64,000 bases of DNA from a virus. Position 1 is the stretch's first letter. The number at the start of each line of letters is the position of its first letter. Below the pieces are notes generated by a model. It saw only the letters and a program-made list of their open reading frames with translations, made no database searches and was not told the origin of the DNA. A program made the translations under genes and the position numbers. The stretch is from positions 1 through 64,000 of IMG/VR virus record IMGVR_UViG_3300023184_000042, one strand, 5' to 3'. Of the stretch, positions 6,500 to 56,929 are shown in pieces.

Positions 6500-7310
6500 A
6501 CTTAAAGATATATTAACAGAATTAAAGTCTATTGAAAATATAGATAAGGTTGATACTACTAAACCATATTCCATAATATGGAACAATGGAGATTTAGTTG
6601 CTATGTCTCCGGGTGCTATGCCTCCTATGTCTTTAGGTAAGATGTTTCCGATGATGGTTGAGCCTTCTAAGAAAATAGTTAAGCTGCAAGACTATGACGA
6701 TTGGTCTAGCTTCAAAGACATTTTGAAAATGCAACAAGCTGTTAAAGATATGCTTAAAGCTAAATTAATTGATATGACCTGGAAGGTTGATATTCCAATG
6801 TCTGATGTAAAAAAGAATATTGGTTCATTGAAAATTGCAGAGTTTTTAAAATACAATGCTACATTTTCAAACACGATAACAAAAGCATTTCACGGAACCA
6901 CTGATAAAGAATTAGCGTCTATTCAAAGGATAGGTATTACACCTCCGTCTAAAACAGATCAAGAAATTCTAAAATGGGATCAATTCTATGGAGAAGATTC
7001 AAAAGATAAAACATATTGGTCAATTGATTTTGATCGTGCTAAGTATTATGCGGAGCATGCTGTTGGATTATATGATAGAATGGGAATAAAAGCAAAGCCT
7101 ATTGTAATTGAAATAAACAATTGGCCAATGTCAATGACAACTGCAGACGATGACTTTCAGTCTAATATGAGTATGATTCAAATGTTAGCTGTAATGCAAC
7201 ATGGTAAGTTAGATAATACATCAGCTATTCAGTCAATCAGAATGACTTCGCAATTTGCTATTAAAGGAAGAGTACCAGCTTCTAAAATTATAAAAATACA
7301 TAAAGTATGA
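6492..7310 (+). CDS. putative packaged effector with ADP-ribosyltransferase-like domain (272 aa)
   Basis: Begins MIKLKDILTE|L, the short propeptide-like motif of this cluster. The C-terminal part carries AFHGTT (H134-G135-T136), then YWSIDFDRAKYYAEHA (about 165-180) and a strand IVIEINNW. This order (H-G-T, a Y/W-S strand, a helix starting with A) is typical of H-Y-E clade ADP-ribosyltransferase or RNA 2'-phosphotransferase-like folds. The methionine-rich segment at 37-56 is odd and unexplained. The target is unknown. The gene begins inside the preceding gene and ends on an ATGA overlap. The enzymatic call is from motif order only. Confidence 0.6.
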   Translation: MIKLKDILTELKSIENIDKVDTTKPYSIIWNNGDLVAMSPGAMPPMSLGKMFPMMVEPSKKIVKLQDYDDWSSFKDILKMQQAVKDMLKAKLIDMTWKVDIPMSDVKKNIGSLKIAEFLKYNATFSNTITKAFHGTTDKELASIQRIGITPPSKTDQEILKWDQFYGEDSKDKTYWSIDFDRAKYYAEHAVGLYDRMGIKAKPIVIEINNWPMSMTTADDDFQSNMSMIQMLAVMQHGKLDNTSAIQSIRMTSQFAIKGRVPASKIIKIHKV

Positions 7311-7891
7311 TAAAACTTAAAGATTTACTTTCTGAAGCTTGCTGGAAAGGATATAGACAATTCGGAATGAAAAAGAAAGGTAAGAGACAAGTACCTAATT
7401 GCGTTCCAGTAGAGGAAGAGATAGTGAATGAAATAGGTGATGGCTCGTCAGGGACTTATAAATGGGAATTTAAGCAGTATGGAGAGTCTTATCAAGATTC
7501 TGAATTTAGTTTTGTCACTGATTTAGATACTAAATATAATTTAGTGTTAAATAGCAAACAATGGGTAGATGCTGAATTAGATAATATTCCAGCAGTTGAA
7601 GTTGAATTTTTAGTACAAAACATAACTAGTATAGGTCGAGGATATTCTTCTAAAATAACAACTAACAAAGGAGAGCATTTAAAAGTAATGTCTACTATAG
7701 TTGATATATTAAAAGAATACATTAAAAAGAATCCAGCAGTAAAAGCTATTATGTATTCTCCTGCTAAGAAAGACAATGAAGAAGTATTTGGAACACAAAG
7801 AGATATGCTTTACAAAGCATTTATTAAGAAAGCTGTTCCTTCTGCTACATTTGTCAGAGAAGATGATTATACTATTGCTATAATAAAATAA
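7307..7891 (+). CDS. putative head-packaged protein with CWKGY...PNCVP segment (194 aa)
   Basis: The propeptide-like MIKLKDLLSE|A is followed at once by a basic segment CWKGYRQFGMKKKGKRQVPN ending NCVP, then an acidic stretch ending EIVNE|IG that could be a second processing site. I recall similar CWKGY...PNCVP segments in other large-phage proteins, always near N-termini, but know of no proven function. The remaining 150 residues form an alpha/beta domain I cannot name. ATGA coupling with the upstream gene. Confidence 0.65.
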   Translation: MIKLKDLLSEACWKGYRQFGMKKKGKRQVPNCVPVEEEIVNEIGDGSSGTYKWEFKQYGESYQDSEFSFVTDLDTKYNLVLNSKQWVDAELDNIPAVEVEFLVQNITSIGRGYSSKITTNKGEHLKVMSTIVDILKEYIKKNPAVKAIMYSPAKKDNEEVFGTQRDMLYKAFIKKAVPSATFVREDDYTIAIIK

Positions 7892-7892
7892 T

Positions 7893-8678
7893 ATGATTAA
7901 GTTAAAAGATTTATTAAACGAGTTAGACTTTGGTAAGTATCCATTTACAGACGTTACCTCATTGAAAAATTCTTGGACTCAAGAACATTTCAAACAATTA
8001 CTTGATCAATGGAAATTTGTTGAAGAACCTAATACCAAAGACGAAGCAAAATTTCTTAAAGCTTTAACTAGATATTTCAAAGACGCTAAAAATCCTATAT
8101 CTGTTTCAGACTTAAATCAATTGTTATCAATTAAATCTAAATTTCCAGGACTTTTAGATCCAGCATCAAGTACAATATATTCTAAACTTTACAGAGGTAC
8201 TTCAATTCCAATAAAAGATGTTTTGCGATACTCTTGGTCGAGTCCATCATGGGGTGTATATGAATGTAGTACTCCTATTACAATAAATTCTAAAACTACT
8301 AGAGGTTTTACTTCATTTTCAATATCTCAAAACACAGCTACTGAATTTGCTGTTGACGCTTGGCCAAATGGATTCGATGATAGTGAATATCAAGATGAAG
8401 CAGGGGCTTTAGAAGCTATTAATATGCATTTAGTTCCGGCAGTAGTATCTATAGATATTTCAGACCCTAATGCATTATTCAATCCAGAATTTTCTGAATT
8501 ATTTAACATTCACGGTAATGAAGGGGAAGTTTTATATATAGGCAATTCATATAAATCAATTAAAACAAAAATAGTAGCTTTAGATGATATTTTTTCATAT
8601 GTCAAACAATGGTCAAAAGGTAAATATGATGAACAATGGTTAGCTTTAGCTGAATATTTAAAAGTAAAATTAAAATGA
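7893..8678 (+). CDS. predicted mono-ADP-ribosyltransferase effector, head-packaged type (261 aa)
   Basis: All three blocks of an R-S-E ADP-ribosyltransferase are visible: the arginine of LYRGTS (R101), the STS-like GFTSFS (S141-S143) and the ExE turn HGNEGEVL (E210, E212). E212 would be catalytic and E210 the arginine-targeting residue. It begins MIKLKDLLNE|L, a propeptide-like motif with a possible prohead-protease site, as in T4 Alt, which is carried in the head and modifies host RNA polymerase. Residues 11-95 are helical and may bind a partner. A tandem paralogue follows at 8675. The target is not known. Confidence 0.8.
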   Translation: MIKLKDLLNELDFGKYPFTDVTSLKNSWTQEHFKQLLDQWKFVEEPNTKDEAKFLKALTRYFKDAKNPISVSDLNQLLSIKSKFPGLLDPASSTIYSKLYRGTSIPIKDVLRYSWSSPSWGVYECSTPITINSKTTRGFTSFSISQNTATEFAVDAWPNGFDDSEYQDEAGALEAINMHLVPAVVSIDISDPNALFNPEFSELFNIHGNEGEVLYIGNSYKSIKTKIVALDDIFSYVKQWSKGKYDEQWLALAEYLKVKLK

Positions 8679-9436
8679 TAAAATTAAAAGACCTTTTAAA
8701 AGAATTAGACTTTGGTAAATTTCCATTTACAGATCCTGACGCAGTGCAGTTGGGTATGATGGAGAAAATGTCTTTGGAAAGATTGATTGACAAATACAAA
8801 TATGTCACAGAACCTAATACCAAAGATGAGCAGAAACTCTTGAAAGATTTAAGTAAGTATTTTGAAAATGAAGAGAATACAGTTCAAGTTTCAGGATTAA
8901 AAGCTCTTTTAGCTGTTAAATCTAAATTCCCAGGTATACTTGATCCGGAACAAGCTGATGATTTTAGCTATGTATATCGAGGTACTTCAATGCCAATCGC
9001 TGAAGTATTGAAATATGATTGGAATAAGCTTAAGGATCAATTTGGTCAATCTGAATTTGAATGTAAATCTAATAATGTAATGATAACTGCTAAAGGAGAC
9101 AGAGGGTTTTCTTCATTTTCAGTATATGAAGACACTGCTGCAGACTTTGCTAATGAACAATATATAGACTTTCCAGCTCATTACATTAAAAATAATTTAG
9201 TTCCTGTAGTGACTTCTATATATATTTCCAATCCTAATGCATTATTCAATCCTGCATTTTCTAAAATATTCAACATACATGGTAATGAAGGAGAAGTTTT
9301 ATTGATAGATACAAAATATAAGTCTCCTAAAACTAAATTGGTATTTTTAGATGATGTATTTGAAAATATTCAAGATCAAGGAAAATTGAGTAGCGAATGG
9401 AAAGCTTTAGCCAAACATCTTAAAATTGAATTGTAA
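8675..9436 (+). CDS. predicted mono-ADP-ribosyltransferase effector, tandem paralogue (253 aa)
   Basis: Paralogue of the preceding gene with the same layout. MIKLKDLLKE|LDFGKFPFTD mirrors LDFGKYPFTD, followed by R102 in VYRGTS, GFSSFS (144-149) and HGNEGEVLL with E205 and E207. All catalytic positions are intact in both copies, so both may be active, perhaps on different targets. The start overlaps the upstream stop (ATGA), consistent with tandem duplication inside an operon. Divergence is widest in the segment between the arginine and STS blocks. Confidence 0.8.
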   Translation: MIKLKDLLKELDFGKFPFTDPDAVQLGMMEKMSLERLIDKYKYVTEPNTKDEQKLLKDLSKYFENEENTVQVSGLKALLAVKSKFPGILDPEQADDFSYVYRGTSMPIAEVLKYDWNKLKDQFGQSEFECKSNNVMITAKGDRGFSSFSVYEDTAADFANEQYIDFPAHYIKNNLVPVVTSIYISNPNALFNPAFSKIFNIHGNEGEVLLIDTKYKSPKTKLVFLDDVFENIQDQGKLSSEWKALAKHLKIEL

Positions 9437-9881: not shown

Positions 9882-10399
9882 TGAGAGTTAATTTAGACAT
9901 ATCACAAAAACGAGAAACTAATTCAATACTACGACTTAGCGATGTACTCTTAAAGAAAAACTTTAACGCCTCTAACACAGTAATTATTTCAGTATCAGCT
10001 GATTATTCTAATATAGCAGGTCAGTTATTAAGACATTCATTGAGCTATGATGGAGAAATTTGTGATGGATTCAGCATAGACGTGCCTTATCCTGATGAAG
10101 TTTGGGACTCTATTTATATACGTGAGTTAGAGTCTTTGATGAATTTATACAAATACAAATTAACTAATAAAAAAATACTTTTAGTTGAAGCCGGAGTTAT
10201 CAGAGGTTCTAATTACAAATTCATTATAGATTATTTTAGAACTAATTTGAAACTTACTGAAGAAATTTATACATTAGCAGTGTATGAGAATATGCATTCA
10301 AAATTTGAATCAGACTTTGTAGGAGAATATTATAATGACGAAACTCAAGATTTAACATTTTGGTGGGAACGATATAACAAACATTGGAATAATGATTAA
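9881..10399 (+). CDS. phosphoribosyltransferase-like protein (172 aa)
   Basis: The strand-turn KKILLVEAGVIRGSNYKFI (about 135-153) resembles the PRPP-binding loop of type I phosphoribosyltransferases, with E-A-G-V-I-R-G in place of the usual DD-x-x-x-T-G; an early strand NTVIISVSADYSN would match the fold. The acidic pair is weakened, so catalysis is uncertain. Unlike its neighbours it has no propeptide-like N-terminus (MRVNLDISQKRETN). TAATG start junction and 8-base overlap with the next gene. Confidence 0.55.
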   Translation: MRVNLDISQKRETNSILRLSDVLLKKNFNASNTVIISVSADYSNIAGQLLRHSLSYDGEICDGFSIDVPYPDEVWDSIYIRELESLMNLYKYKLTNKKILLVEAGVIRGSNYKFIIDYFRTNLKLTEEIYTLAVYENMHSKFESDFVGEYYNDETQDLTFWWERYNKHWNND

Positions 10400-11360
10400 A
10401 CTTAAAGATTTATTAAAGGAATTAGAGTCCAAAGACAATTATTACATTGCTAATAATATCATGGAACCTAGATTAGCAGTGAGAAAATATTTCAATGCTA
10501 ATAAAGACTCTTTGGAAGTACTCATGGACCAAGATAGATGGCATGAAGTATATCAAATAATCTTTAAACAATTTCCACAATTTGAACAGCATATACTATC
10601 CACTGCAATTAATAACGAAGCTCTAGATGCAGGATGGCTGACTAAACAAGTTCCTGTAAATGCAAAATTATCTTTAGATGTTAATAGTGAAGTAGGAGAA
10701 ATTCAAACTACAATTTCTGCCTGGGTAGCTAAAAATAAAAATAAATTAATAAAGCTAGCAGACGATGATGACTATACAAAATTCTATCAAGCTGCTAGAG
10801 ATCAATTTCCTGGAGTTCAAGATGATAAACTTTTATTTGCTTTGAAAGTAGCAGCTGTGGAACATGATATTCATTATGATGTATTGACAGATGGAGTAAT
10901 CAAACTTAAAGATTTACTAAAGGAATCTAAATATTCAGAATTGTTATACCATGGAGGAGATGTAGATTTTAATAAACCAATGTACTTCTCTGATAGTTTA
11001 TTAATAGCTCAATCATATGGAAAGGTTACTGGGCCGTATCAAATCACTCTTGATAAATTCATTACATTAGATTTTAGTACTGCTGAAGGATGGTGGTTAC
11101 CTGAAATTGCTGCTAAAAATGAAGTTAAGAAATTTGGTATGAAACTAGAAGACTTTGATAAGTACAAGTCAAATCCAGAAATTAAATCTATAAAGACTGA
11201 CCATTTTGTTAGAGCAGCTATTGATAAAGGTTTTGATGGAATAGTCTTTCAAAATATTATGGACGCTGGAAGTCATCCAGTAAAAGGAAACAAATATATA
11301 CGAACAACTAATGTGGTTGCTATAAACCCTACAAAGTCAGCAAAATTAAAAAAAGACTGA
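10392..11360 (+). CDS. fused double cargo protein: unknown domain plus ADP-ribosyltransferase-like domain, with internal propeptide
   Basis: Residues 1-10 are MIKLKDLLKE, and the same motif recurs inside the protein as VIKLKDLLKE (169-178), directly before a new domain. The first domain (11-168) has two similar helical halves, compare QIIFKQFPQF and QAARDQFPGV. The second starts LLYHGGDVDF (H187-G188-G189), then MYFSDSLLIAQSYG and KGFDGIVFQN, an order seen in ADP-ribosyltransferase-like folds. The DNA at the internal motif matches other gene starts except that the ATG is GTA, so two adjacent genes appear to have fused while keeping the second site. A processed two-part product is inferred. 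Confidence 0.68.
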   Translation: MIKLKDLLKELESKDNYYIANNIMEPRLAVRKYFNANKDSLEVLMDQDRWHEVYQIIFKQFPQFEQHILSTAINNEALDAGWLTKQVPVNAKLSLDVNSEVGEIQTTISAWVAKNKNKLIKLADDDDYTKFYQAARDQFPGVQDDKLLFALKVAAVEHDIHYDVLTDGVIKLKDLLKESKYSELLYHGGDVDFNKPMYFSDSLLIAQSYGKVTGPYQITLDKFITLDFSTAEGWWLPEIAAKNEVKKFGMKLEDFDKYKSNPEIKSIKTDHFVRAAIDKGFDGIVFQNIMDAGSHPVKGNKYIRTTNVVAINPTKSAKLKKD

Positions 11361-11807: not shown

Positions 11808-13202
11808 ATGAAAAAATCGGAATTAAGAGAGCTTATCAGAGAGCAAGTTCGAACTTTAATCAAAGAGGCTAGCGTATCTCAAGAAGCCTATACAATTCAC
11901 AACATAACAAAATGTGGGCAAGATGCCGCTCAAAATTTTATTGATGACAATAAATTAGACGGTAAAAAGTTAGCTGCTTACGTTAGACAACACTCAAACT
12001 CAAAAGAAAAGTATGATGTTCGAGACATTATTGCTGGTACAGGAGTAGGAGCTAACGTTGGATTTAAATCTAGATTTGTTAAACAATTCAAAGAATCTGT
12101 AATTAAAGAAGCTAAAGAATATTCTTTTACTTTTGACTATAATACAGATGATGATGATATTGAATACATCAACGACTTATTAAAAAAAGCTAGAGTAAAT
12201 GCAACGGCAGAGGCGGGAACGTTTGATGATGAAATGGTTGTCAAAGCTTTAAATGCAATTGAATTGAATAAAGCTAAAAAAGCAATTAAAGCTGATGGAT
12301 TTGAAATCAATGAAGCTGTGATTAATGAAAATGAGCATCTTGATTTATCAAAATGGAAAATAGGAGACAATGTTGAGTTTTCTAATGGTGAAATTTGGAA
12401 AGTAGCAAAGCCAGGATATAAAAAAGCAAATGACTCTATATTTTTAGCTCCATTCAATGCCATTGCAAAGAAAGGACATATTTCACTTGCAATTGAATTT
12501 ACGGCAGATGAATTAACAAATACAGTGACAGAGTCTGTACTTAAAGAAGCTGATATGACTAGATTTTATGACGGGTTTATTGTTCTTGACGGCAAAACAA
12601 AAAAGACATACAAATTTAAGTATATTAAAGGCAGAAAAAATACTGACGTGGAAAATGAAGCTTTTGCTAAAATAATGAAAGCAACTGGTTCTCCAAGATC
12701 AAATTTCGGAGTGCATGGGTTTGTTAAAAAAGGACAATTCGATACAGACAAAACACCTGTATTTACAGAGTCTGTGCTTAAAGAAGACGCGGGAATGGTT
12801 ATTGATGTAGCGATGGGCGTTGCAGTAGGCTTAATGGGTTTATGGGCATTAGTTCAAAGTGCACCTTTAGTAGGTAGAGTATTTGGGGATGCTGCAGAGT
12901 ATTTAGCTAATAAATCTGAAAAGAAAGCTAAATTGGCATTGAAAAATCAAAGAAAAGAAACCATAGCTCCTATCATTGCCAAATTTAAAAATGACAAGCA
13001 GTTAGCCGATATGTATCAAAACTTAACTCCATATAGCGCAGCAGCTAAATTAGGTAGCAGTCAAGCCGGACTTAAAGCACAACAAGGAAGAGTGAACCAA
13101 TTAACAAAAATTGGTAAATACATTAAATCTAAATTAACTCCTGAAGAATTAGTATATTTCAAAGATATATCTGCAATGTTAAGAGACGGAGATTTAAAAT
13201 AA
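11808..13202 (+). CDS. putative head-packaged polyprotein with repeated internal cleavage-like sites (464 aa)
   Basis: Begins MKKSELRELIREQVRTLIKE|A. The ending of this propeptide recurs inside the protein: ESVIKE|A (E101), FEINE|A (E169), ESVLKE|A (E247) and ESVLKE|D (E326). The sites separate four compact segments of 68-81 residues and a C-terminal part with a glycine/alanine-rich transmembrane helix (about 330-355). The segment at 21-101 contains a helical domain (YTIHNITKCGQ... VRQHSN). The simplest reading is a polyprotein processed by the prohead protease into several internal peptides. The cuts are inferred; the repeats are directly visible. Confidence 0.72.
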   Translation: MKKSELRELIREQVRTLIKEASVSQEAYTIHNITKCGQDAAQNFIDDNKLDGKKLAAYVRQHSNSKEKYDVRDIIAGTGVGANVGFKSRFVKQFKESVIKEAKEYSFTFDYNTDDDDIEYINDLLKKARVNATAEAGTFDDEMVVKALNAIELNKAKKAIKADGFEINEAVINENEHLDLSKWKIGDNVEFSNGEIWKVAKPGYKKANDSIFLAPFNAIAKKGHISLAIEFTADELTNTVTESVLKEADMTRFYDGFIVLDGKTKKTYKFKYIKGRKNTDVENEAFAKIMKATGSPRSNFGVHGFVKKGQFDTDKTPVFTESVLKEDAGMVIDVAMGVAVGLMGLWALVQSAPLVGRVFGDAAEYLANKSEKKAKLALKNQRKETIAPIIAKFKNDKQLADMYQNLTPYSAAAKLGSSQAGLKAQQGRVNQLTKIGKYIKSKLTPEELVYFKDISAMLRDGDLK

Positions 13203-14489: not shown

Positions 14490-14804
14490 ATGAAAAAATC
14501 AGAATTAAGATCTCTTATAAGAGAACAAGTAAAAGCTATTCTTAAAGAAGCTACTATAGATACTATAAACTATACAAAAGCAATTAAGTTTTTCAATCAA
14601 ATGAAAAGAGAATATTTTGAAGATGAAGATGCTCAAGAAGATTTCATTAATGAAATTGCTACAATTGCGAAGCAATTAGGTATTACTGAAGATGTTACCA
14701 ATGATGATATAATTGCAGGATTTTTAGAAGATGTACAAGATGTAGACGTTACTGCTGTCATTATGGTAAAAATGTTAAAGAAATTCTTATCAGAATTACA
14801 ATAA
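14490..14804 (+). CDS. putative head-packaged small protein (104 aa)
   Basis: N-terminus MKKSELRSLIREQVKAILKE|A. The mature region of about 84 residues is acidic and helical; its core IATIAKQLGITEDV aligns with LSVIGKQLGLPEDI in the next gene, so the two are paralogues in this region. Confidence 0.65.
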   Translation: MKKSELRSLIREQVKAILKEATIDTINYTKAIKFFNQMKREYFEDEDAQEDFINEIATIAKQLGITEDVTNDDIIAGFLEDVQDVDVTAVIMVKMLKKFLSELQ

Positions 14805-14808
14805 CTGC

Positions 14809-15732
14809 ATGAAAAAGACAGAGTTACAACAACTTATCAGAGAAGAAGTTCGTAAAGTACTTAAAGAAGCTATATCTATAGATTCTGCTAACTTTTCTAA
14901 TCTTGCTAAAGTCATTAAAAAATTACGAGATGACAATGCTACGCAGCAAGACTTAGCAAAAGAGTTAAGTGTTATAGGTAAACAATTAGGACTTCCAGAA
15001 GATATTGAAAAGGAATCTGATTTAATCGATAAGTTGGAACTTGCTATTAATACTGATGACTTTGGTATAGGAGATGCAATAGATGTAGTTAAAGATTGGT
15101 TTCTTGATAATTTTATTAATGCTAAAACGTCTACTAGAAATATAGCAGAAAATCCTAAAAATACAATTACAGAGGCTGAGGTTAGAAGTTTATGGAGTAG
15201 TTTAAACACTGTAGATTTTATACAAAATAATCGCACTTTAAAAGGAGTAAATAACTTAAGTATAGAAGATTTATCTAAAGTGTTTAAATTGCAAGATGCT
15301 AAATTTTACTTTCAAAAAACTCAAGCTACTGGTAAAACAAAGACTGAATTTATTTACAGTAAATCTGCAAATGTACTTATCAATGTTGGTATTCCATTTT
15401 CAGGAACTGCCGAACCAACTATAATGCTAAAATCTGATTCTCAATCTAAATTAGATCAGCTTAAAAAATTATTTTACGAGTCGAAGTTTTATGATGAAGA
15501 GCATAATCAAAAAAATGCAAATGGTCAGATATCTAGTACAAATGCCAATGCAAAGACCATGATGTCTTACATGTTAAATGCCGTTCCAAAAGATAAGCTT
15601 GATGGTATATTAGATAAGCTATATGACTCATGGACAAAATTAAGTATCGATACTAGATTAAATAAATATAAATTAGATCCTACGAAATACGCAGTTGAGT
15701 TTAATACTAAGTACAAAGAAACTCAAAAATAA
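14809..15732 (+). CDS. putative fused head-packaged protein (307 aa)
   Basis: N-terminus MKKTELQQLIREEVRKVLKE|A. Residues 21-115 resemble the entire mature part of the preceding 14490 product. A site-like TITE|A near residue 122 then precedes a separate C-terminal domain of about 185 residues, lysine-rich with no recognised fold. This looks like a fusion of a 14490-type peptide to a second cargo domain with a processing site at the join. The final codons overlap no other gene. Confidence 0.65.
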   Translation: MKKTELQQLIREEVRKVLKEAISIDSANFSNLAKVIKKLRDDNATQQDLAKELSVIGKQLGLPEDIEKESDLIDKLELAINTDDFGIGDAIDVVKDWFLDNFINAKTSTRNIAENPKNTITEAEVRSLWSSLNTVDFIQNNRTLKGVNNLSIEDLSKVFKLQDAKFYFQKTQATGKTKTEFIYSKSANVLINVGIPFSGTAEPTIMLKSDSQSKLDQLKKLFYESKFYDEEHNQKNANGQISSTNANAKTMMSYMLNAVPKDKLDGILDKLYDSWTKLSIDTRLNKYKLDPTKYAVEFNTKYKETQK

Positions 15733-29760: not shown

Positions 29761-29834
29761 AATCGGTTGGTGTAATTGGTAACATTGCCCCTCTCCCGGG
29801 TCAGATAAGGGTTCGAGTCCCTTACCGTATTCCA
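29761..29834 (+). tRNA. tRNA-Glu(CTC)
   Basis: T-arm AAGGG-TTCGAGT-CCCTT and anticodon loop CTCTCCC with CTC at 34-36, CCA encoded. The acceptor AATCGGT / ACCGTAT has two mismatches (2-71 A/A, 3-70 T/T), so function is uncertain. Confidence 0.6.
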
Positions 29835-39200: not shown

Positions 39201-39277
39201 GCGGTGCTGGTGTTTAACGGTTAGCATATGAGTCTTCCAAACTCGAGGTAAGGGTTCGAATCCCTTGCGCCGCTCCA
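39201..39277 (+). tRNA. tRNA-Gly(TCC)
   Basis: Acceptor GCGGTGC/GCGCCGC, anticodon loop CTTCCAA, T-loop TTCGAAT, CCA encoded. Confidence 0.88.
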
Positions 39278-39282
39278 ATATT

Positions 39283-39363
39283 GGGATGCTTCAGTCACTG
39301 GTGTGATAAGCGGTCTGTAAAATCGTTCTGTAAGAGGGTATGGTTCGATTCCATAGTGTCCCA
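39283..39363 (+). tRNA. tRNA-Tyr(GTA)
   Basis: Acceptor GGGATGC/GTGTCCC, anticodon loop CTGTAAA, long variable arm, T-loop TTCGATT. CCA not encoded. Confidence 0.82.
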
Positions 39364-39375
39364 CAAATATTAATT

Positions 39376-39447
39376 GGGTTGGTAGCTCAGAGGCAGAGCG
39401 GCTGTTTGTTAGGCAGCGGGTCGAGATTTCGAAATTCTCCCAGCCCT
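39376..39447 (+). tRNA. tRNA-Asn(GTT)
   Basis: Acceptor GGGTTGG/CCAGCCC, anticodon loop TTGTTAG. The T-arm loop is TTCGAAA and its stem has one mismatch. Confidence 0.82.
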
Positions 39448-39453
39448 CAAAAT

Positions 39454-39524
39454 ACGCCAGTAGTGCAATGGTAGCATCTCGGTCTCCAAAACCGATGGTG
39501 GGGGTTCGAATCCCTCCTGGCGTG
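39454..39524 (+). tRNA. tRNA-Trp(CCA)
   Basis: Perfect acceptor ACGCCAG/CTGGCGT, anticodon loop CTCCAAA. Confidence 0.88.
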
Positions 39525-39555
39525 CGAATTAAGTGTGTAACGTAAATTAGAGATT

Positions 39556-40062
39556 ATGAATAAATATCAAAAAACGCTTGTCGTAGATTCAAGCTTTATG
39601 GCGAGATCTATTATTAGTGCAGAGAGAGCATTTGTGATTTCTTATAAAGGTAATGCTGAAGTTGTTTCTGAACATCCTGAAACTTTTGGATTGGTTAATC
39701 CAGAGTTAAAGATTAATAAACCTTCTATTATACGTGTTTATAAGTATGTTAAACAGCATATTCATAAAGTGCCTTTAACAAGAGAAAATGTTTATAGAAG
39801 AGACAATTTCGAATGTGTATATTGTGGATGTTCAAATATCAAGTTGCTAACTTTAGATCATGTTATACCTCAATCAAAAGGAGGTCAAAACTCTTGGGAC
39901 AATTTAGTTACTGCATGTAAATTTTGTAACTCTGAAAAGGCTGATTTAACTTTGGAAGAGTTTGGTAAGGAAATTCCCGAACCAAAAAGGCCTCATTATT
40001 TAATGTTAATGAAGCAAGTAAATTATATACCTAAAGAATGGGAGTCCTTTCTATTCTTTTAG
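39556..40062 (+). CDS. HNH endonuclease inside the tRNA array
   Basis: The HNH core is complete: RRDNFECVYCG (CxxC), TLDHVIPQSKGG (catalytic H after D), SWDNLVTACKFCNSEKADL (N, CxxC). At 168 residues it matches small phage and bacterial HNH nucleases. It interrupts the tRNA cluster between tRNA-Trp and a degenerate tRNA, a typical landing place for homing endonucleases. The codon usage resembles its surroundings. Confidence 0.85.
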   Translation: MNKYQKTLVVDSSFMARSIISAERAFVISYKGNAEVVSEHPETFGLVNPELKINKPSIIRVYKYVKQHIHKVPLTRENVYRRDNFECVYCGCSNIKLLTLDHVIPQSKGGQNSWDNLVTACKFCNSEKADLTLEEFGKEIPEPKRPHYLMLMKQVNYIPKEWESFLFF

Positions 40063-40066
40063 AATT

Positions 40067-40136
40067 AATTGGAATTAGCTTATAGTAAAGCAGCAGGGGC
40101 TAACCTGTAGAACGGATACGAGAACCGATTCCAATT
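40067..40136 (+). tRNA. degenerate tRNA-like gene, anticodon unclear
   Basis: Nine-bp acceptor AATTGGAAT/ATTCCAATT, D-stem GCTT/AAGC with a 6-base loop lacking GG, anticodon stem GCAGG/CCTGT with only a 6-base loop GGCTAA, and a T-arm without TTC. Either a decayed tRNA or a tRNA-like RNA. Confidence 0.45.
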
Positions 40137-40141
40137 AAAAT

Positions 40142-40213
40142 GCCTTGGTAGCTCAATGGTAGAGCACTTGTTTTGTAAACAAGAAGTTGCAGGTTCGAGT
40201 CCTGTCCTCGGCT
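40142..40213 (+). tRNA. tRNA-Thr(TGT)
   Basis: Anticodon loop TTTGTAA, T-arm GCAGG-TTCGAGT-CCTGT. The acceptor GCCTTGG/CCTCGGC has mismatches at 4-69 (T/C) and 5-68 (T/T). Confidence 0.78.
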
Positions 40214-40219
40214 CAAAAT

Positions 40220-40293
40220 GATGATATAGCTCAATTGGTTGGAGCACCTCGCTGATACCGAGGAGGATATAGGTTCGAGTCCTATTATCATCA
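40220..40293 (+). tRNA. tRNA-Ile(GAT)
   Basis: Perfect acceptor GATGATA/TATCATC, anticodon loop CTGATAC. Confidence 0.88.
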
Positions 40294-40304
40294 CAAATAT
40301 ACTT

Positions 40305-40380
40305 CTGGTAGTATAGGAGTCCGGTTTATCTAGCCTACCTTGGATGTAGGAGCACGCAGGTTCGAATCCTGCCTATCAGA
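40305..40380 (+). tRNA. tRNA-Pro(TGG)
   Basis: Acceptor CTGGTAG/CTATCAG, anticodon loop CTTGGAT, T-loop TTCGAAT. Confidence 0.85.
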
Positions 40381-40400
40381 CAAATTTTCTTTTAAGAAGG

Positions 40401-40432
40401 TTAGGATTAATCAAAAGAATTCTTTATCTTTA
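40401..40432 (+). promoter_or_regulatory. Bacteroidota-type promoter within the tRNA array
   Basis: TTAG, 20 bases, TATCTTTA, leading directly into tRNA-Lys. Confidence 0.8.
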
Positions 40433-40448
40433 TGTAAGAAAATAATTA

Positions 40449-40519
40449 GCCCTCTAGGCTTTAAAGTGAAGCACCTAGCTTTTAACTAGGGAAAGAAGGA
40501 GCATTACCTTCAGGGGGTA
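40449..40519 (+). tRNA. tRNA-Lys(TTT) with non-canonical elbow
   Basis: Acceptor GCCCTCT/AGGGGGT, anticodon arm CCTAG-CTTTTAA-CTAGG. The D-loop lacks GG and the T-loop is AGCATTA instead of TTCGANN. Confidence 0.72.
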
Positions 40520-40578
40520 CACAGATGAGATTGTTATTAATTCATAGAGCTACATATTGCGAGCATAGAATTAAATTT

Positions 40579-40649
40579 GCCTCGTTGGCGTAATGGAAGC
40601 GTATTTCTTTTACATGGAAATGGCAGTGGTTCGATTCCACTACGAGGTA
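40579..40649 (+). tRNA. tRNA-Val(TAC)
   Basis: Acceptor GCCTCGT/ACGAGGT, anticodon loop TTTACAT, T-loop TTCGATT. Confidence 0.84.
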
Positions 40650-40655
40650 CAAAAT

Positions 40656-40729
40656 GTCCTTTTAGCTCAGCTGGTCAGAGCAGCTCGCTCATAACGAGAA
40701 GGTCACAGGTTCAAATCCTGTATAGGACA
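40656..40729 (+). tRNA. tRNA-Met/Ile2(CAT)
   Basis: Anticodon loop CTCATAA, T-loop TTCAAAT. The acceptor GTCCTTT/ATAGGAC has a T/T mismatch at 6-67. It could be elongator Met or lysidine-modified Ile. Confidence 0.8.
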
Positions 40730-40737
40730 CAAAAATT

Positions 40738-40809
40738 GGTCTATTGGTCCAGGGGTATGGATGTCTGCCTGTCACGTAGAAGACTCGGGTTCGAATCCCG
40801 AATAGACCG
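40738..40809 (+). tRNA. tRNA-Asp(GTC)
   Basis: Perfect acceptor GGTCTAT/ATAGACC, anticodon loop CTGTCAC. Confidence 0.88.
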
Positions 40810-40848
40810 CAAATGGTTTTGAACTTTTTCTTTATGTGTTTGTTTTTG

Positions 40849-40929
40849 AGGCATTTGACTTTCCATGCCAGTTAGCTTATATGCTGTGTCATGGATACCG
40901 AAGGAAGCTGAGTAAAAATGTAAATGCCT
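40849..40929 (+). ncRNA. candidate pseudoknotted structured RNA inside the tRNA array
   Basis: Outer stem AGGCATTT/AAATGCCT (40849-40856 with 40922-40929). Inside, TCCATG 40862-40867 pairs with 40890-40895, and TTAGCTT 40872-40878 pairs with 40905-40911, crossing the first helix. Same topology as the RNA at 29640. No open frame. A T-arm-like hairpin GCCTGG...CCAGGC follows at 40941-40959. Confidence 0.55.
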
Positions 40930-40962
40930 TTATATGAGAAGCCTGGTTTCGAGCCAGGCAAT

Positions 40963-41035
40963 GGGTCTTTGGTATAGCTGGTGCGTACGTTAGTCTGAAG
41001 AACTAAAGGAGCAGGTTCGATTCCTGCAGGACCCA
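40963..41035 (+). tRNA. tRNA-Phe(GAA)
   Basis: Acceptor GGGTCTT/AGGACCC, anticodon arm TTAGT-CTGAAGA-ACTAA, T-loop TTCGATT. Confidence 0.87.
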
Positions 41036-41045
41036 CAATTTAATT

Positions 41046-41113
41046 GCCGAGTGGTCAGGGACCGGAGATGGCTCATATCTATTTCTAGAATGGCTCGATA
41101 CCATTACTCGGTA
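41046..41113 (+). tRNA. tRNA-Met/Ile2(CAT) with reduced D-arm
   Basis: 68 bases. Acceptor GCCGAGT/ACTCGGT, anticodon stem GATGG/CTATT with loop CTCATAT. The D-arm is shrunk to GGTC-AGG-GACC and the T-loop is CTCGATA. Confidence 0.65.
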
Positions 41114-41120
41114 CAAATTT

Positions 41121-41192
41121 TGGGTTATAGTGTAACGGTTAGCACAAATCACTTTGGCTGATTTAGTCTAGGTTCGAATCCTAGTAACCCAA
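41121..41192 (+). tRNA. tRNA-Gln(TTG)
   Basis: Perfect acceptor TGGGTTA/TAACCCA, anticodon loop CTTTGGC. Confidence 0.87.
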
Positions 41193-41202
41193 CAAAATAC
41201 AT

Positions 41203-41276
41203 GGTGATTGTAGCTGAATTGGTAAAGCACCTGATTGTGGTTCAGGCGATTGTGGGTTCGAGTCCCACCCTTCACA
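41203..41276 (+). tRNA. tRNA-His(GTG)
   Basis: Anticodon arm CCTGA-TTGTGGT-TCAGG with an extra G at -1. The acceptor GTGATTG/CCTTCAC has mismatches at 5-68 (T/T) and 6-67 (T/C). Confidence 0.8.
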
Positions 41277-41370
41277 CGACGACGCCCAGAGGACGTAAGT
41301 CTTGGTTAGAGATTTATTCTTACAGACTCGGTACCTAAAGCTGAGCGGCTATTTGAAAGAATAGCTTTAT
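41277..41370 (+). other. spacer with tRNA-remnant-like stems
   Basis: CGCCCAG (41283-41289) can pair with CTGAGCG (41341-41347) with one mismatch, around GTAAG/CTTAC and AGTCT/AGACT pairs. A GCTATT-TGAAAG-AATAGC hairpin follows. No tRNA fold is complete. Confidence 0.3.
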
Positions 41371-41458
41371 GCGCCTGTGGTGGAATGGTAGACACGTTGG
41401 ACTTAAAATCCAATCCTCAGGATTGGGGGTGCCGGTTCGAGTCCGGCCTGGCGTACCA
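41371..41458 (+). tRNA. tRNA-Leu(TAA)
   Basis: Class II with variable arm, anticodon arm TTGGA-CTTAAAA-TCCAA, CCA encoded. The acceptor GCGCCTG/CTGGCGT has a T/T mismatch at 6-67. Confidence 0.85.
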
Positions 41459-41460
41459 AT

Positions 41461-41548
41461 GGAAAGTAATGCAACTAGGAGTTGTCACTGTTTGCTAAAC
41501 AAGTGGTCCGGGAAACTGGATAGGGTTCGATACCTTTGCTTTCCTCCA
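41461..41548 (+). tRNA. tRNA-Ser(GCT)
   Basis: Acceptor GGAAAGT/GCTTTCC, anticodon loop TTGCTAA, long variable arm TCC/GGA, CCA encoded. The anticodon stem has one bulged base. Confidence 0.8.
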
Positions 41549-41556
41549 TAATAAAT

Positions 41557-41629
41557 GCCTCTATAGCATAAATGGAAATGCAACATCCTTCTAAGATGTT
41601 AAATGGAGATTCGAATTCTTCTAGGGGTA
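41557..41629 (+). tRNA. tRNA-Arg(TCT)
   Basis: Acceptor GCCTCTA/TAGGGGT, anticodon arm ACATC-CTTCTAA-GATGT. Confidence 0.86.
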
Positions 41630-41633
41630 CAAT

Positions 41634-41727
41634 AAGAAACAGAGTAAAGCCTGGACAGCGAAAGCAGGGTAGTTTTTAACTTGGACAGTTTCTTTTAGCA
41701 GTTTAAGAGTCAGAGCTGACTTCTGCT
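41634..41727 (+). other. spacer with two structured segments
   Basis: AAGAAAC/GTTTCTT (41634-41640 with 41688-41694) encloses a CCTG/CAGG stem and a GC-GAAA-GC tetraloop. A nested hairpin follows at 41697-41727 (AGCAG/CTGCT around AGTCA-GAGC-TGACT). Possible tRNA remnants or small RNAs; no open frame. Confidence 0.35.
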
Positions 41728-41748
41728 TATCAAAAATGCTCTGCCACT

Positions 41749-41822
41749 GCCCGAGTAGCCGAATTGGTATAGGCGCTAGACTTAGGATCTAGATTTTGCG
41801 AGTTCGAGTCTCGCCTTGGGTA
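41749..41822 (+). tRNA. tRNA-Leu(TAG)
   Basis: Acceptor GCCCGAG/CTTGGGT, anticodon arm CTAGA-CTTAGGA-TCTAG. The variable region is short for Leu. Confidence 0.82.
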
Positions 41823-41828
41823 CAAAAT

Positions 41829-41900
41829 GCTCTTATAGTTTAATTGGAAAAACGTTTGGCTACGGACCAGATGATATAGGTTCGAGTCCTATTAGGAGTT
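41829..41900 (+). tRNA. tRNA-Arg(ACG)
   Basis: Acceptor GCTCTTA/TAGGAGT, anticodon loop CTACGGA. Confidence 0.85.
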
Positions 41901-41907
41901 CAATAAT

Positions 41908-41978
41908 GGCGTGATGACCGAATGGTTAGGTGCAGGTCTGCAAAACCTGTTATGCTGGTTCGATTCCAGCTCGCGCCT
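41908..41978 (+). tRNA. tRNA-Cys(GCA)
   Basis: Acceptor GGCGTGA/TCGCGCC, anticodon arm CAGGT-CTGCAAA-ACCTG. Confidence 0.87.
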
Positions 41979-41998
41979 CAAAATAATTTTAAATAATA

Positions 41999-42030
41999 TT
42001 AGGTTCCTCCAAAAGGGTATCTTATATTTA
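41999..42030 (+). promoter_or_regulatory. Bacteroidota-type promoter, variant, within the tRNA array
   Basis: TTAG, 20 bases, TATATTTA; the spacer shares CTCCAAAAGG with the 38263 promoter. It precedes tRNA-Ser(TGA). Confidence 0.72.
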
Positions 42031-42044
42031 TGAAGAATTAAAAG

Positions 42045-42134
42045 GGAAGGTTGGCAGAGTTGGTCTATTGCACCGGTCTTGAAAACCGGAGAGCGTGTAA
42101 AAGCGCTCCGTGGGTTCGAATCCCACATCTTCCT
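42045..42134 (+). tRNA. tRNA-Ser(TGA)
   Basis: Acceptor GGAAGGT/ATCTTCC, anticodon arm CCGGT-CTTGAAA-ACCGG, long variable arm. Confidence 0.88.
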
Positions 42135-42140
42135 CAAATT

Positions 42141-42212
42141 GGCCCTATCGACTATCGGTTAGGTCGTCAGGTTTTCATCCTGGAAAGTCGGGTTCGATTC
42201 CCGGTGGGGCTA
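42141..42212 (+). tRNA. tRNA-Glu(TTC)
   Basis: Acceptor GGCCCTA/TGGGGCT, anticodon loop TTTTCAT. Confidence 0.86.
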
Positions 42213-42220
42213 CAAAAAAA

Positions 42221-42292
42221 GGGGTTATAGTGAAATTGGCATCACGATAGATTTGCATTCTGTTATTCCGAGTTCGAGTCTCGGTAGCTCCA
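42221..42292 (+). tRNA. tRNA-Ala(TGC)
   Basis: Acceptor GGGGTTA/TAGCTCC, anticodon loop TTTGCAT. Confidence 0.85.
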
Positions 42293-42326
42293 CTAATTTA
42301 TTAACAAATACTAAATATTATCTATT

Positions 42327-56446: not shown

Positions 56447-56929
56447 ATGAACTCAAAAGATTTTATACAAGCGCTTCGAAAAGTAATTCGTGAAGAAGTT
56501 TCGACCGCGGTTCGTACAGAGTTAAAGCAGTTTGGTTCCGTGATTACAGAAACAAAAAGACCTGTCAGACAAGAGCAAGCGCCTACATACACTAACACAT
56601 ATAAACCAAAACCTAAACCAAAGCAGACATTTTCAAAAAATTCTATGCTTAATGACATTTTAAATGATACTGGAGGATTTCGTTCTGAAAACCCTTATGC
56701 ATCGTTAAATGAAAGTATGGTTGATTATAGTGGAGATTTTGATGAATGGCCAACAATGCAAATGGGAGCAAGACCTTCAATGACTATGTCCAAAGCTGCT
56801 GCAATTCCAACTACTGATCCAGAAGGAAGACCTATAAACCCAGCAAATGTACCTGAGGAAGTAGTTAATGCAATTACAAAAGACTATTCAGCTTTAATGA
56901 AAGCAATTGATAAGAAAAAAGGATTATAA
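56447..56929 (+). CDS. hypothetical virion-associated protein with IREEV-type N-terminus (160 aa)
   Basis: Starts MNSKDFIQALRKVIREEVST, reminiscent of the long propeptide class of the cargo cluster but without a clear [L/I]xE cut site. The middle is proline/lysine-rich and disordered (YKPKPKPKQTF). TAATG junction with the gp25-like gene, so it belongs to the baseplate operon. Confidence 0.65.
   Translation: MNSKDFIQALRKVIREEVSTAVRTELKQFGSVITETKRPVRQEQAPTYTNTYKPKPKPKQTFSKNSMLNDILNDTGGFRSENPYASLNESMVDYSGDFDEWPTMQMGARPSMTMSKAAAIPTTDPEGRPINPANVPEEVVNAITKDYSALMKAIDKKKGL

Follow-up and report, generated by a model that had tools for sequence, protein, structure and literature searches.

A probable modular precursor of internal head proteins, with repeated head-protease-like sites, in a T4-like phage

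The IMG/VR virus record IMGVR_UViG_3300023184_000042 is 132,303 bp long, and its first 64 kb, here called the window, holds an open reading frame (ORF) of 464 amino acids (aa) at 11808-13202 that begins with a short leader and divides into five segments, S1 to S5 (Table 1). The leader ends LIKE20/A (a slash within a motif marks a predicted cut), and that ending recurs inside the chain as ESVIKE101/A, FEINE169/A, ESVLKE247/A, and ESVLKE326/D. An earlier note, made from the DNA sequence, had pointed to these repeats as processing sites of a cargo polyprotein, and the repetition is confirmed: every motif is present as claimed, and its tight form lies beyond chance. Past the leader, the loose motif [LIV]xE[AGSD] is found 5 times against 1.7 in shuffled sequences (P = 0.023), and the tight motif ES-x-[LIV]-x-E is found 3 times where 0.019 would be expected, a number that none of 20,000 shuffles reached. 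Elsewhere in the phage, the tight motif appears a single time in the 31,820 residues of non-leader ORFs. Cuts at single sites, after residues 20, 101, 169, 247, and 326, are predicted to give products of 20, 81, 68, 78, 79, and 138 aa, the last with one strongly hydrophobic stretch at about residues 331 to 349, in agreement with the segments of 68 to 81 residues plus a membrane segment first described. No Pfam or PHROGs match was found anywhere in the chain (Pfam at an E value of 0.05), and hence no peptidase domain was detected.

All four junctions between segments are doublets, in which two Glu sites stand 5 residues apart (96 and 101, 169 and 174, 242 and 247, 321 and 326). The partner site lies upstream at junctions 1, 3, and 4 (FKE96/S, VTE242/S, and FTE321/S) and downstream at junction 2 (VINE174/N), and because both flanking junctions are doublets, the ends of S3 are ambiguous by 5 residues on each side. 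Thus, the four sites of the earlier note were placed correctly, but each junction is really a double site, and the statistics of junction strings given below led us to abandon a single-site reading. The aspartate at P1' of site 4 is part of the S5 module, as a stand-alone relative of S5 likewise starts with D straight after the Glu of its leader.

Table 1. Features of the candidate precursor and of related leader-bearing genes in the window (pLDDT, predicted local distance difference test)
Feature	Position	Strand	Description or basis
Candidate cargo precursor ORF, 464 aa	11808..13202	+	ATG start, TAA stop
Leader MKKSELRELIREQVRTLIKE, capsid-targeting-like	11808..11867	+	residues 1-20, ends LIKE20/A; low pLDDT at 1-21
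Segment S1, residues 21-101, helical	11868..12110	+	profile searches, structure model
Junction 1, FKE96/SVIKE101/A	12093..12110	+	motif
Segment S2, residues 102-169, beta-alpha-beta-beta-alpha	12111..12314	+	profile searches, structure model
Junction 2, EINE169/AVINE174/N	12300..12329	+	motif
Segment S3, residues 175-247, small beta-rich domain	12330..12548	+	profile searches, structure model
Junction 3, VTE242/SVLKE247/A	12522..12548	+	motif
Segment S4, residues 248-326	12549..12785	+	profile searches
Junction 4, FTE321/SVLKE326/D	12768..12785	+	motif
Segment S5, residues 327-464, hydrophobic membrane-type stretch, then helices	12786..13199	+	profile searches, model
Single-domain leader-bearing gene	14490..14804	+	paralogue of first domain of 14809-15732, 37% identity
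Second likely precursor	14809..15732	+	14490-like domain, NTITE122/A, further domain
Third likely precursor	10392..11360	+	leader, acidic-helical repeat, second complete leader VIKLKDLLKE/S, weakly ART-like domain

The junctions resemble the ends of leaders. Within this phage, 25 ORFs begin with a leader of the type MIKLKDLLKE or MKKSELRxLIREQVRxxLKE, the majority of them at 3.0 to 15.8 kb, and 83 ORFs of related contigs carry the leader pattern MK..F..F[LIV]xE, the type being MK..F..F[IV]NE. The leaders of related phages with the pattern MK..F..F[IV]xE, for example MKHIKLFEDFINE/A, are read as similar to capsid-targeting sequences. Asn occupies P2 in 58 of the 83 leader ends of related loci, and at the second site of a junction, 30 of 52 strictly non-redundant junctions have Asn at P2, which was left unconstrained, compared with a background of 6%. 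P1' in the junctions is chiefly G, A, or S, in a search that admitted only A, G, S, D, E, N, and K. Because Asn at P2 and a small P1' are found in both leader ends and junctions, a common recognition pattern is indicated. Moreover, the position two before the first Glu, likewise unconstrained, is hydrophobic in 74 of 97 distinct junction strings, compared with 17 for each neighboring position. In the non-redundant set, 36 of 52 junctions have a hydrophobic P3 at the upstream site, a share to be compared with 27% overall or with 38% ahead of any ES dipeptide (P = 6e-6 against the latter).

Beyond the window, at about 95.7 to 106 kb, lies a T4-type head block that includes a portal gene (phrog_213 match in PHROGs), and the 464-aa chain is encoded far from it. 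The phage has a gp21-type head maturation protease (L004:17872-18480; phrog_207, E = 4e-55) and a major capsid protein (phrog_138) that can be aligned with the solved T4 gp23*. The capsid protein itself contains a site, LVTE60/A, and that of Flavobacterium phage immuto has IVSE/A at the corresponding position. An acidic scaffold-like protein (L005:1516-2391), separate from the 464-aa chain, adjoins the capsid gene. The host is probably a flavobacterium, because phage immuto, in small patches, is the only isolated phage with similar DNA. The window also has 22 tRNA genes, a dense array of 21 at 39201-42293 and one at 29761.

Structure prediction is consistent with separate domains. A whole-chain AlphaFold2 model, built from 16 sequences, had a mean pLDDT of 60 and a predicted template modeling score of 0.28, with S1, S2, S4, and the helices of S5 compact. 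Confidence was low at residues 1-21, 97-104, nearly all of 169-248, and 320-378, with pLDDT values under 50 in the leader and near the junctions. A separate model of S3, which had one homologous row in that alignment (from L007, a near-identical phage), used 8 sequences and gave a small beta-rich domain (pLDDT of 69, poor at ends 1-8 and 76-80). The models thus offer separate compact segments and no single continuous fold across the sites, and where the earlier note had spoken of peptides, the products appear instead to be small folded domains. Foldseek returned no match at E ≤ 0.001 in PDB or BFVD. Weak RRM/ferredoxin-like Foldseek hits probably reflect S2 alone, and sequence-search matches to Tenacibaculum pT24 (H5/H6, E = 1) and to VP24 in PDB (E = 0.007) were judged to be chance. 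A match of a related chain to cyanophage S-CAM8 gp114 lay near a basic 'GMKMKGGKLVPNCVP' motif with weaker sites and was excluded from the evidence.

The segments behave as mobile modules in other viruses. Related loci (L007 to L058) came from searches of uncultivated-virus contigs with the whole protein and its segments, and the segments were then located by profile searches. Each of the five recurs elsewhere beside different modules and mostly in a different order, and each has a copy immediately after a leader in one or more other phages. S1 occurs alone as a leader-bearing ORF of 82 to 91 aa (L009, L019, and L025) and also within other chains, S2 as a short one (L013, L046, and L047), S3 as one of 91 aa (L010, 7018-7293), and S5 as one of 147 aa (L017, 4110-4553) that reads MKHVKLYEEFVNE/DMGMVV. 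S3 is N-terminal after a leader in L054, S5 is C-terminal in L041 and internal in L058, and in L055 S4 comes after a leader that has two sites. S4 also lies within chains of 231 to 1016 aa (L008, L010, L011, L012, L049, L051, and L054), with those of L051, L054, L010, L049, L008, and L011 at 459 to 1016 aa. Examples of reordered chains are leader, S2, S4, S3 in L012 and S2 then S5 in L041.

Where the modules end is where the sites are. An [LIVMF]xE site marks the upstream edge in 40 of 43 non-redundant segment occurrences (null mean 7.8, maximum 17) and the downstream edge in all 30 that have a downstream neighbor (null mean 7.0, maximum 16). The three upstream exceptions are two profile edges displaced past LVNE or MIKE and one FANE. 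In 62 site-bearing chains, 75 of 251 homology breakpoints fell near ES-type sites, against an expected 35 ± 5, and when segments delimited by the sites matched one another, the match spanned over 80% of each partner in 72 of the 123 hit pairs. Finally, L007 has exchanged S4 for two other modules and a short linker, while its S5 is 97% identical and its DNA is 96% identical downstream and 86% identical upstream of the swap. Homology on the left ends at window position 12555 (predicted cut 12548/12549) and restarts on the right at 12780 (predicted cut 12785/12786), so that both breakpoints are at most 7 bases from a predicted cut position.

We propose, with a probability of roughly 80%, that ORF 11808-13202 encodes a modular precursor of internal (cargo) proteins of the virion in a T4-like phage, cut by the head protease into five proteins. 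In T4, a 10-residue leader sends internal proteins into the head, and gp21 removes it by cutting after L/I-X-E (PMC9026906); Alt additionally loses a C-terminal piece (PMC5694885). By comparison, the N-terminal leader here would carry the entire chain into the core of the prohead, and the gp21-type protease would cut after Glu at [LIV]xE in flexible junctions, often twice, 5 residues apart. Cutting would take off the leader and free four compact domains of about 70 to 80 aa and a protein of 138 aa with a membrane-type helix, and these would remain in the head and be delivered together with the DNA. Related phages would rebuild such chains as modules are gained, lost, and reordered at the junctions. 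For the 464-aa chain, we infer targeting, cleavage, packaging, and delivery alike. Nonetheless, the earlier idea of a one-leader precursor with several processing sites gains support from the separate predicted folds, the leader-bearing stand-alone segments, and the matching head protease. The T4 proteins Ip1, Ip2, and Ip3 act against type IV restriction enzymes, each inhibiting a different one (PMC12373910), and by analogy with the T4 internal proteins and Alt, the likeliest role of the products would be counter-defense or host take-over.

Several observations weigh against the proposal. Leader-like N termini of the LIREEV type are also found among baseplate and tail genes (56447-56929; G000 114726-117482), and therefore a leader is not proof of a destination in the head. 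T4 gp21 favors L or I at P3, but at junctions 1 and 4 the inner site has F in that position, and the case of junction 2 is ambiguous. D at P1', as at site 4, is infrequent (4 of 52 junctions). Shared descent links some of the segment occurrences and makes the edge counts less than fully independent. The models of S3 and S5 are of moderate quality, and searches with the whole protein, the segments, and three related chains found no homologue of the chain among isolated phages. Phages are known to inject multidomain proteins (PMC5512222), and with junctions that, from sequence comparison, are clearly recombination joints, the chain might instead be an uncut protein of this polyvalent kind, its domains tethered and ES-x-[LIV]-x-E serving only as flexible linkers that coincide with recombination joints. 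A plain linker, however, would need neither the leader-end pattern of Asn at P2 and a small P1' nor a second hydrophobic-x-Glu about 5 residues upstream, and while the chain has no peptidase domain, the phage encodes a protease of matching specificity type. We consider an uncut protein unlikely.

Cutting might also occur and yield waste rather than cargo, as with T4 gp22, gp67, and gp68, which cleavage breaks into several pieces, most of them lost (PMC9026906). That the chain is such a scaffold or core protein, whose fragments leave the head, seems very improbable, as its segments appear to be conserved folded domains that stand single behind leaders and are shuffled among chains, another protein beside the capsid gene is scaffold-like, and the gene is outside the head block. 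Least credible is a single-domain protein with Glu-rich repeats that arose by chance. The enrichment of the loose motif is modest and would fit such an origin, but the tight motif is far in excess of expectation, mobile modules begin and end at the sites, and no single fold spans the sites in the models.

Two more ORFs of this phage, 14809-15732 and 10392-11360, are likely independent cases in which one start codon serves two cargo units, as judged from their domains and sites. A scan of contigs with the former gave leader matches alone, and thus the case for its module mobility rests on the paralogue in the window. The latter has a duplicated acidic-helical domain, its first domain has a paralogue at G000 92350-93267, and its C-terminal part matches PF18760 (ART-PolyVal) at E = 0.018, under the Pfam cut-off. 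ORFs 7893-8678 and 8675-9436 are leader-bearing paralogues with the motifs YRGT...FTSFS/FSSFS...EGEV; they look like R-S-E ADP-ribosyltransferases and perhaps T4 Alt-like cargo, and neither has a Pfam match. ORF 7307-7891 has a leader, then a very basic unit of 30 aa (CWKGYRQFGMKKKGKRQVPNCVP), plus an IVNE site; the same unit stands between or after sites in L026 and L027, and S-CAM8 gp114 has a similar motif. A cytidylyltransferase-like protein of 911 aa (G000 88375-91110; L004:5375-8110) has its domains separated by NESLDLNE/A, FMTE/A, and IQESLLRE/G, and a cyanophage cytidylyltransferase (T4-GC190) has been detected in virions (PMC3037559). In the isolated Flavobacterium phage vB_FspM_immuto, whose laboratory host is Flavobacterium sp. 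LMO8, gp079 (L061:14006-16531), a hypothetical protein of 841 aa, opens with a leader-like sequence and contains two sites of the ES type, NESVNE/G and KESLNE/D.

RNA viruses are noted for their polyproteins, and the head protease of tailed phages is known for propeptide removal and scaffold clearance. A cargo polyprotein, if true, would explain how a few leaders suffice to pack many injected proteins in equal amounts. Moreover, the doublet rule [LIV]xE/S...[LIV]NE/[AGS] would allow many phage proteins that lack annotation to be parsed into the units probably delivered to bacteria, and T4 relatives of such units counter restriction systems. A broader proposition, for which we see the odds as even, is that aquatic T4-like phages share a combinatorial cargo-polyprotein system in which the doubled site is both processing signal and module joint and one leader loads up to about nine effectors per chain. 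Among the papers found in an open-access library, none reports several cargo proteins chained behind one capsid-targeting leader, which is not proof of novelty.

Known systems resemble the proposed precursor in part. Like T4 IPI, IPII, IPIII, and Alt, it has a short leader ending in [LI]xE and a small residue, a gp21-type protease gene in the same phage, and small, variable, phage-specific cargo; T4 cargo genes, however, encode one protein per leader, whereas here a single leader precedes five segments and four junctions of repeated, usually doubled, sites. T4 gp22, gp67, and gp68 are likewise single chains cut several times by gp21 inside the prohead (PMC9026906), but their pieces are mostly expelled, while the segments here seem from the models to be independently folding domains, conserved and mobile. 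For the inner head proteins of SPN3US and phiKZ, a prohead protease of the same superfamily cuts one head protein repeatedly, yet 13 of 14 mapped SPN3US sites remove N-terminal propeptides, and release of several separate mature proteins was not reported (PMC10052503). The motif there is AxE or SxE rather than [LIV]xE, and the 464-aa chain has no pfam12699 or other Pfam match at E 0.05. Polyvalent proteins, finally, have many domains per chain, are thought to enter the host, and have been likened to polyproteins (Iyer et al. 2017, PMC5512222). They consist of named domains, usually with an embedded peptidase, and release, if any, is by peptidase domains in the chain, whereas the 464-aa chain has domains of about 70 to 80 aa outside any Pfam family and would be released in trans, by the head protease acting at repeated sites.
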